Below are positions 11,522 to 13,756 of a DNA stretch of 64,000 nt, one piece after another. The notes beneath the pieces were generated by a model. That model was not told the origin of the DNA. It worked only from the letters and a program-made list of their open reading frames with translations, and ran no database searches. The DNA lies in the NCBI GenBank assembly GCA_011525785.1, contig WYBT01000063.1, positions 1-64,000 on the forward strand. Reading direction: 5' to 3'. Both the position numbers and the translations under genes were made by a program. How positions within the stretch are numbered: position 1 is the stretch's first letter; each line of letters opens with the position of its first letter. The stretch comes from Planctomycetaceae bacterium. Its GTDB lineage: Bacteria; Planctomycetota; UBA1135; GCA-002686595.

Positions 11522-12364
11522 GTGAGCGAGTCTGCGGCGGCGCGCGAAGGAACGATCGAGAGCTGGGCGCTCGCGTTCGTGCTGGAGCGCGACGTGGCGC
11601 GCAAGTTGGCCCCGAGTGCTGCGCCAGACGTCCGCGACGAAGCGAGTTGGTGCGGGGACGGCGTCGAGCGGCGTGTCGAAGCGCCTGGGCGGCCGAGTGA
11701 GTGGAACGTGACGCGGCGCGCGGAGAAGGCGGCCAAAGCTGGGGCGCTCGGGCGCGTCGAGGAGCGCGTGCGCATGCTGCACGTGTTCGCGCACCACGAG
11801 CTGCAGGCGGCGGAGTTGTTCGCGTGGGCGTTGCTCGCGTTTCCGCAGACGCCGCGCGCGTTTCGCGCCGGGCTCGTGGCGCTGTGCGGCGAGGAGTTGC
11901 GGCACCTTGCGAGCTATGTGCGGCGCATCGAGGAGCTCGGCGGGCGTTTCGGGATGCACCCGCTGCGCGATTGGTTCTGGGAGCGCGTGGGAAGCGTGCG
12001 CACGCCGCTCGAGTTCGTCGCGCTGCAAGGCGTCGGGCTCGAGGGCGCGAACCTCGAGCACGCGGCGCGCTGGGCGCGGCTGTTCCGCGCGGCGGGCGAT
12101 GAAGCGAGCGCGCAGCTCATCGAGGTCGTCGAGCGCGAAGAGATCGGCCATGTGGCCTTCGCTCGCACGTGGTTCGAGCGCTTGAGCGGCGACGCGCTCA
12201 CGTACGAGCGCTGGGCCGCTGCGTTGCCGCCGCCGCTGACGCCCGCGCTGTTCCACGGCGCGCAGCTCAACCTCGAGGCGCGGCGGCGCGCGGGTCTCGA
12301 CGAGGCGTTCCTCGCGGCGCTGCAACGCGCGGGGCCCGCGGTGCGCGAGCGAGCGGCGCCGTGA
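11522..12364 (+). CDS. DUF455 ferritin-like protein
   Basis: This 280-residue protein starts with GTG 6 nt after a TACTCT hexamer. A helical core carries repeated Glu/His motifs of the ferritin-like di-iron type: HHELQAAELFAWAL, LCGEELRHLASYVRRIEELG, LEGANLEHAARW and VEREEIGHVAFA. These match DUF455, whose members have the E..H / ExxH spacing of four-helix di-iron proteins but mostly unknown reactions. The stop overlaps the next GTG by 4 bp, so it forms an operon with the ATP-grasp-like gene; the two products may act in one modification or synthesis step, which is inference. Confidence 0.75.
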   Translation: MSESAAAREGTIESWALAFVLERDVARKLAPSAAPDVRDEASWCGDGVERRVEAPGRPSEWNVTRRAEKAAKAGALGRVEERVRMLHVFAHHELQAAELFAWALLAFPQTPRAFRAGLVALCGEELRHLASYVRRIEELGGRFGMHPLRDWFWERVGSVRTPLEFVALQGVGLEGANLEHAARWARLFRAAGDEASAQLIEVVEREEIGHVAFARTWFERLSGDALTYERWAAALPPPLTPALFHGAQLNLEARRRAGLDEAFLAALQRAGPAVRERAAP

Positions 12365-13344
12365 GTCGCCCGCGCCTCGCTTGGGTGCTCAATCTCGACG
12401 CTGAGCACGAGCTCGAGCACGGCCGCACGTTCACGCCGTCGGACCACTTGCGGGCGCTGGTGGCGCGCGAGAGCCGGCGTTTGATCGGGTCGCTCGTCGC
12501 GGAGCACGACGTCGTGCTCGAGGAGCGCGATCGCACCAGCGGCGAGCGGCGCGCCGAAGGGCTGTTGGGCCTGTGCTGGTCGCCGACGCCCCGCGCGCTC
12601 GCATTGTTGCGCGCTGGCGGGGCGAAGCCGATCGAGAGCGCGGGCGTCGAAGCGCTTCGCGTCGTCAACGCGCGGCCGTTCGCAGCGGCGTTGCGAGCCG
12701 AGCACGCACCGCAGAGTTTCGAAAAGTTCGTCGTTGCGACGCTCGAGGACGCGCTCGCGCGGCTCTCGCGCCCGGCCGCGCTCGGCTGGCTGGTGCGACG
12801 CAGCTTCGGTGCGGCAGGCCGCGGCCGGCGTTGCATCGCGAGCGGCGCGCCAGATGCTGGTGAGCTCGCGTGGCTCGTCGCGAGCCTGCGCAGCGGGCCA
12901 CTGGTGATCGAGCCGTGGGTCGAGGTCACGCGTGAGTTCACGCGCTCGGGCTGGGTCACCGCCGGCGGCGAGGTCTCGCTGTCCGCGCCGTGCTTGCAGA
13001 GCGTCGCGGCGAACGGCGCCTGGACCGGAACGGAGCGCGACGAGGAGCACCTGACTCGCCGCAGCGAGGACGAGCAGCTCTCCGCGATGTTCGAGCGCGC
13101 GGGACGGGCTCTCGCGGCGAGCGGCTACTTCGGTCCGTTCGGGATCGATGCCTATCGCCATCGGACGGCGGACGGCCGCGAAGCGCTCAATCCGCTCAGC
13201 GAGATCAATGCGCGCTTCACGATGGACTGGACCACGGCGCTGGGGCCAGGTGCTCTCGAGCGCTGGTTGAGCAGTACGGCGCCAGAGCAAATTTTCCACG
13301 TTGGCTGCAGCGATGCTGCGAGCGCCGCGCGACGCCGCGGCTGA
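12361..13344 (+). CDS. ATP-grasp-like protein, partner of DUF455 gene
   Basis: A GTG at 12361 overlapping the DUF455 stop gives a 327-residue protein starting SRPRLAWVLNLDAEHELEHG; the frame is open further left, but inside the DUF455 gene. LVRRSFGAAGRGRRCI resembles the ATP-grasp nucleotide loop, LVIEPWVEVTREF the central strand, and SEINARFTMDWTTAL the metal-binding 'NxR' end of the fold. Such proteins usually ligate a carboxylate to an amine or thiol. The substrate is unknown. The last ~20 residues are encoded in and just after the left arm of a 32-bp inverted repeat, so the true C-terminus may have been altered. Confidence 0.6.
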   Translation: MSRPRLAWVLNLDAEHELEHGRTFTPSDHLRALVARESRRLIGSLVAEHDVVLEERDRTSGERRAEGLLGLCWSPTPRALALLRAGGAKPIESAGVEALRVVNARPFAAALRAEHAPQSFEKFVVATLEDALARLSRPAALGWLVRRSFGAAGRGRRCIASGAPDAGELAWLVASLRSGPLVIEPWVEVTREFTRSGWVTAGGEVSLSAPCLQSVAANGAWTGTERDEEHLTRRSEDEQLSAMFERAGRALAASGYFGPFGIDAYRHRTADGREALNPLSEINARFTMDWTTALGPGALERWLSSTAPEQIFHVGCSDAASAARRRG

Positions 13345-13375
13345 CGTGGAAAATTTGCTCTGGCGCCGTACTGCT
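13270..13375. repeat. Perfect 32-bp inverted repeat with 42-bp spacer
   Basis: The arm at 13270-13301 is the exact reverse complement of 13344-13375. The spacer itself contains a small hairpin (GCAGC-gat-GCTGC). The left arm lies in the 3' end of the ATP-grasp-like gene, the right arm starts at the last base of its stop codon, and the next gene starts 25 bp later. It could be a very strong terminator, a short mobile palindrome, or an assembly or amplification artefact. There is no run of T after the right arm. Confidence 0.85.
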
Positions 13376-13387
13376 GGACTGCCCAAG

Positions 13388-13393
13388 TAGAAT
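13388..13393 (+). promoter_or_regulatory. Probable -10 element of the UGA-containing gene
   Basis: TAGAAT lies 6 nt before the GTG at 13400. Similar TAnnnT hexamers occur just before other starts in this window, so the transcript would begin at or very near the start codon. Confidence 0.45.
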
Positions 13394-13399
13394 TGCGGC

Positions 13400-13756
13400 G
13401 TGACCACTGCTCCCACTCCCGATCACGCCGTCGTCGCGCAAGGCGACATGGCGCACCTGCGCGAGATCCAACGCGTGCTCCGCGCGCGCGGCATCGAGTC
13501 GAACATGATGCAGCCGCCCGGCGGCTGCGGCAGCGGGTGAGGGACCAAGCTGTGGCTCGCGGTCGCGAGCCAGGATGGTGAGAGCGCCGCGCGCGTGGTG
13601 TTCGAGCACTGGGGTCAGGACGTCGATTTCGAGGCCCTGGTGCGCTCGCAGCAGGCGATCGACCTCAACGCCGAGTCGGCGAGCTGCCCGGCCTGCGGCG
13701 CGGCCTTCCCGACGAGCAAGACGCGCTGTCCGAGCTGCGGGCTGCGCTTCGGCTGA
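13400..13756 (+). CDS. Probable selenoprotein: small DUF2007-like protein with zinc ribbon and in-frame UGA (Sec47)
   Basis: One frame from GTG 13400 to TGA 13754-13756 gives 118 residues if the internal TGA at 13538-13540 (codon 47) is read through. Both halves look like one protein. The N-terminal half (HLREIQRVLRARGIESNMM) resembles the first helix-strand of DUF2007-type signal-transducer folds. PPGGCGSG-U-GTKLWLAV then places the UGA three residues after Cys43 (Cys-x3-Sec), and the C-terminus is a zinc ribbon (CPACG...CPSCG). A hairpin with a GGUC loop sits at the right distance after the UGA. The role is unknown; the Cys/Sec pair suggests redox or metal chemistry. The alternative is a nonsense-mutated pseudogene. 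Confidence 0.7.
13554..13571 (+). promoter_or_regulatory. Bacterial SECIS-like hairpin
   Basis: GGCTCGC-GGTC-GCGAGCC forms a perfect 7-bp stem with a GGUC loop. The loop begins 20 nt after the UGA at 13538-13540. E. coli fdhF has the same GGUC loop about 18 nt after its UGA, and bacterial SECIS elements lie roughly 16-37 nt downstream with a G at the start of the loop. The hairpin is inside the coding sequence (codons 52-58), as expected in bacteria. Confidence 0.65.

Follow-up and report, generated by a model that had tools for sequence, protein, structure and literature searches.

Organization of the locus

The gene described here lies on the forward strand of the window, by which we mean the whole 64-kb stretch of DNA that was analyzed. 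Its frame is open from 13400 to 13753 with a single interruption, a TGA at 13538-13540, and closes at a TGA terminator at 13754-13756. A TAG at 13388-13390 stands three codons ahead of the start, and the GTG at 13400 is the only in-frame start. Re-reading 13400-13756 thus reproduces the frame of 118 codons, broken by TGA at codon 47 alone, that the first-pass annotation had described. The features of the locus are as follows.

13400-13756, + strand: predicted selenoprotein gene with a GTG start, 118 amino acids plus a TGA stop (reading of the open frame; 107 of 154 class genomes carry a homologue)
13424-13621, + strand: N-terminal β-α-β-β-α domain, DUF3343-like, which holds the putative selenocysteine (Sec) codon (PF11823 in 19 of 28 members; hhalign 91-93%; AlphaFold model)
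13538-13540, + strand: in-frame UGA, codon 47, predicted to be read as Sec (TGA in 83, TGG in 8 and TGC in 1 of 92 distinct relatives; Cys in 15 distant relatives)
13553-13572, + strand: predicted SECIS hairpin with a stem of 8 bp (7 bp and an added T-A pair) and a GGUC loop at 13561-13564 (folding, relatives' codons, window scan)
13685-13744, + strand: C-terminal zinc ribbon, CPAC...CPSCGL (Cys 96, 99, 110 and 113 invariant in the alignments; weak Pfam zinc-ribbon matches)

Farther upstream on the same strand, positions 11522-12364 hold a frame for a DUF455 protein (PF04305, 142 bits). Just upstream of the gene, at 13270-13375, there is a 43-bp inverted repeat, 91% complementary, with a 20-nt spacer. 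About a dozen palindromic copies, mostly of 73-90% identity, are dispersed in the host genome, and the element therefore looks like a REP/MITE-type repeat. The micro-RNA matches that Rfam returned upstream of the gene are chance matches caused by this long palindrome.

A conserved hairpin follows the in-frame UGA

Downstream of the UGA, a stretch of 13 nt (13541-13553) leads to the hairpin GGCTCGC-GGTC-GCGAGCC (13554-13571), whose loop begins 20 nt past UGA47 and so falls within the 16-37 nt expected of a SECIS element. The perfect 7-bp stem and GGUC loop noted earlier at this distance are both present, and an additional T-A pair extends the stem to 8 bp. Across the 64-kb window, the gene described here holds the one TGA (13538) that has a GGTC loop at 16-37 nt on a stem of at least 7 bp, whereas dinucleotide-shuffled windows contain a mean of 0.07 such sites. 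For the single sequence, the folding energy of the hairpin is not unusual in such GC-rich DNA (z = -0.88), and the Rfam search matched the element to no family. The case for a SECIS is therefore made from conservation among relatives rather than from folding energy.

Within the protein, the hairpin encodes Leu-Ala-Val-Ala (L53, A54, V55 and A56), and in the 92 distinct aligned sequences, nearly all from the class, that form the codon-level comparison, the codons for these residues are close to fixed: CTC for L53 in 88/92, GCG for A54 in 90/90, GTC for V55 in 92/92 and GCG for A56 in 86/91. Outside the hairpin, the same amino acids are encoded by mixed codons, with GCG at A63 in 39/85, GTC at V11 in 31/60 and CTC at L115 in 16/91. 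In addition, all four genes with CTT in the stem also have GCA, such that a C-G pair of the stem becomes T-A and pairing is kept. Judged by this synonymous constraint and covariation, the hairpin is under selection at the RNA level.

Codon 47 among relatives

The protein is encoded in 107 of the 154 genomes of the class, and nearly all copies contain exactly one internal TGA, at the corresponding position. Of the 92 distinct sequences, 83 have TGA as codon 47, and in these 83 the coding frame is kept on both sides. A search of a genome collection with the alignment of the post-UGA region returned 14 records, all with UGA, of which 12 are planctomycete, one is labeled 'Deltaproteobacteria bacterium' and one 'bacterium'. 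A sequencing error at 13538-13540 is ruled out by the identical TGA in the 83 distinct relatives.

Cysteine at position 47 of homologues, which the first-pass annotation had named as a point to look for, occurs in 15 distant relatives, all of which lack the hairpin, and in one gene of the class. The former include a distant family of the phylum with Cys at the site, a second, N-terminal zinc ribbon and no SECIS. The latter (L029, genome G126), the sole Cys version found within the class, has a broken SECIS stem pair (GCC for GCG), while a near relative (L035) retains UGA. In this planctomycete class Sec therefore appears to predominate and Cys to be exceptional, and homology searches that depend on Cys relatives could overlook the protein.

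Sec machinery of the host genome

All four components of the Sec pathway whose presence was to be checked are found in the host genome. The selA (486 bits) and selD (315 bits) genes and tRNA-Sec (C19:335946-336039, 72.5 bits, anticodon UCA), the product of selC, sit together within 13 kb of contig 19, and selB, which scores above its cut-off, lies at C23:269585. The host's own SelD (L083, C19:330824-331768) is itself a Sec protein, with the motif DCAGUAGK and a hairpin-like stretch beyond its UGA.

Decoding of UGA47

TGA is a stop codon in translation table 11, and the gene's own terminator is TGA as well. In principle, UGA47 could therefore be an ordinary stop, leaving a 46-residue peptide or a pseudogene whose downstream part has decayed or is separately translated. 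This is very improbable given that 83 distinct relatives keep the TGA at this codon in a frame preserved on either side, that the hairpin is conserved and covaries, that the genome has the full sel machinery, and that distant relatives carry Cys and no stop. The TGG found in eight relatives raises the question of whether UGA47 might instead be read as Trp, by a change of code or by Trp suppression, for which we see scarcely any likelihood. A UGA read as Trp would need no SECIS, the gene terminates in TGA, and the genome encodes tRNA-Sec, SelA, SelB and SelD. Moreover, relatives carry SelD genes in which an in-frame UGA serves as the Sec codon, Cys occupies position 47 in distant relatives, and the column aligns with the Cys of DUF3343. 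A change of the whole code from UGA to Trp is ruled out by the gene's own TGA stop together with SelD.

Reading UGA47 as Sec, as the first-pass annotation had done, agrees with the selA, selB, selD and tRNA-Sec genes of the host, with conservation of the SECIS at the RNA level and with Cys in distant relatives. We infer that SelB inserts Sec at UGA47, and on these comparative grounds the gene is almost certainly a genuine selenoprotein gene.

UGG relatives that keep the hairpin

In one family of the order (f8), eight genes (L042-L049; genomes G128-G133, G150 and G153) have TGG in place of the Sec TGA. In all eight, the hairpin remains intact over its six core stem pairs and GGUC loop. Synonymous changes are absent from the four SECIS codons, whereas comparable sites in other parts of the gene average 1.1-1.5 changes (P about 0.02 for a six-gene group and 0.008 for all eight). 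This is suggestive rather than strong, as the sites are few and several other codons are unchanged too. In a tree built without codon 47, the best topology needs three changes between UGA and UGG, yet the AU test does not reject one clade holding all UGG genes (p-AU 0.37).

The SelD genes of the UGG genomes keep UGA. The anticodon of tRNA-Sec is UCA in all 20 genomes checked, six of which are UGG genomes, ruling out a change to CCA in these six; in the other two UGG genomes, G150 and G153, no tRNA-Sec above the cut-off was found. In E. coli with selA, selB and selC overproduced, SelB and tRNA-Sec(UCA) read UGG followed by a SECIS as a mixture of Sec and Trp (Xu et al. 2013, PMC3834832). With an intact SECIS in the f8 genes, this precedent makes a natural dual decoding possible, in which SelB and tRNA-Sec(UCA) would insert Sec at UGG by wobble to give a mixed Sec/Trp protein. 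We consider this unlikely, since the sample is small and a recent change from UGA to UGG would look alike; a plain replacement of Sec by Trp is more likely and is favored. If dual decoding were true, however, it would amount to Sec decoding of a sense codon with the tRNA anticodon unchanged, and the UGG genes with an intact SECIS offer a natural place for testing whether SelB can decode a sense codon.

Domain structure and family assignment

The AlphaFold model (pLDDT 80.8) consists of a β-α-β-β-α domain followed by the ribbon region. Zinc-ribbon-type models aside, one Pfam family keeps recurring: PF11823 (Se_S_carrier, DUF3343) is matched by 19 of 28 members when the threshold is set permissively at E 0.5, and the best of these matches has an E of 2e-4. 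Against the protein of the window, PF11823 scores 16.4 bits, under the Pfam gathering cut-off of 25. Profile comparison by hhalign with DUF3343 domains of the same phylum gives a probability of 90.7% for the whole protein and 93% for the N-terminal domain alone. With the Sec column masked, the probability is 82-89% and Sec still falls on the invariant Cys, whereas no more than 3.2% is reached in 12 column shuffles and 0.4% with the profile reversed. The label 'DUF2007-like' given in the first-pass annotation is accordingly replaced: DUF2007 is the second-best match (51-72%), while DUF3343 fits better (91-93%) and places Sec on an invariant Cys. True DUF3343 is absent from 13 genomes of the order to which the window belongs, the host included. 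The best match in a Foldseek search is a PrgK domain (E 0.03) and no PDB match reaches E 0.001; a search of solved structures by sequence likewise gave weak matches only, several of them to zinc ribbons.

The closest described family is NCBIfam NF049953, the zinc ribbon-containing (seleno)protein DG, for which a review gives the motif GUxG with Sec (PMC13188914, 2026). Its name derives from the 'hypothetical protein DG' of Desulfosediminicola, a deep-Sep prediction of 2025 (PMC12013277). The model matches our protein with E = 2e-22 over positions 60-172 of 172 and gives it a score of 79.9 bits, the cut-off being 130. None of the 154 genomes of the class or the 392 of the phylum has a match above this 130-bit cut-off. 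The suggestion of a new kind of selenoprotein did not hold up, as NF049953 (PMC12013277, PMC13188914) covers the kind, though the present branch scores below its cut-off. By sequence comparison, the product belongs to the DG zinc-ribbon selenoprotein family as a shorter, diverged branch found mostly in planctomycetes, in a form that is widespread in the class. We hold with high confidence that the locus combines a Sec gene with this shorter branch of DG, a judgment that concerns identity and leaves function aside.

Putative function

DUF3343 proteins have been proposed to traffic selenium or sulfur (PMC5322559), their carrier activity being itself a proposal there. The remote homology to DUF3343, with Sec on the invariant Cys, leads us to a Sec-dependent carrier or relay of selenium or sulfur as the best functional guess, which we offer tentatively. 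In such a carrier, the lone selenol would be the single reactive chalcogen, taking up selenium or sulfur as a perselenide or persulfide and then passing it on, as proposed for DUF3343, while the zinc ribbon would dock to a partner. Class-wide, the gene neighborhood contains no shared partner and no conserved neighbor that points to a selenium pathway. Neighbors recur only by subclade and, as judged by eye, include LexA-like, EF-P-like and rhomboid-like frames.

Most selenoproteins are oxidoreductases, and the product could equally be a selenoprotein that uses its Sec for thiol-disulfide or peroxide redox reactions and not for carrying selenium or sulfur, a reading that competes with the functional assignment only and that we regard as possible without preferring it. 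The protein contains the Cys-rich turn G-G-C-G-S-G-U-G, and Cys 43, present here and in some relatives, could pair with Sec as a selenenylsulfide; distant Cys relatives keep a GC-x4-C motif. Many relatives lack Cys 43 while Sec persists, however, so of the Cys-x3-Sec pair proposed earlier the turn with Cys 43 stands for this protein and a conserved redox pair does not. A redox role is also opposed by the lack of a thioredoxin fold in the AlphaFold model and the fold search, and by DUF3343 as the best domain match. The Sec domain might, alternatively, be a regulatory or ligand-binding module akin to DUF2007, in keeping with the hhalign probabilities of 51-72% and with 2hfv, which we take to be a DUF2007 protein, among the Foldseek matches (E 0.11). 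This is doubtful, as DUF3343 scores above it and accounts for the position of Sec, and the DUF2007 sequences used lack a Cys there. Alignment of Sec with the invariant DUF3343 Cys would give the DG family a concrete and testable function, namely carriage or relay of selenium or sulfur.

Comparison with known systems

Similar to the SECIS of E. coli fdhF, the element described here presents a GGUC loop in a hairpin shortly after the UGA, but the planctomycete stem is an uninterrupted 7-8 bp that codes for Leu-Ala-Val-Ala inside the protein. With DUF2007 (PF09413) there is a weak profile similarity, although the sequences used have neither Cys nor Sec at the equivalent place and score under DUF3343. 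The resemblance to DUF3343 (PF11823) is that of a similar small domain by profile, in which Sec-Gly falls on the invariant Cys-Gly of the SSdCG motif and a Pro-containing turn is shared, whereas the window protein adds a zinc ribbon and Sec and scores below the Pfam cut-off. The match to NF049953 spans the Sec domain as well as the ribbon at the C terminus. The main difference is at the N-terminal end, where model positions 1-59, about 60 residues that form a zinc ribbon in distant Cys relatives, are absent from our protein; they cannot be encoded farther upstream, where a TAG closes the frame three codons ahead of the start. The present gene supports and broadens the DG family, known since 2025 only as 'hypothetical protein DG'.
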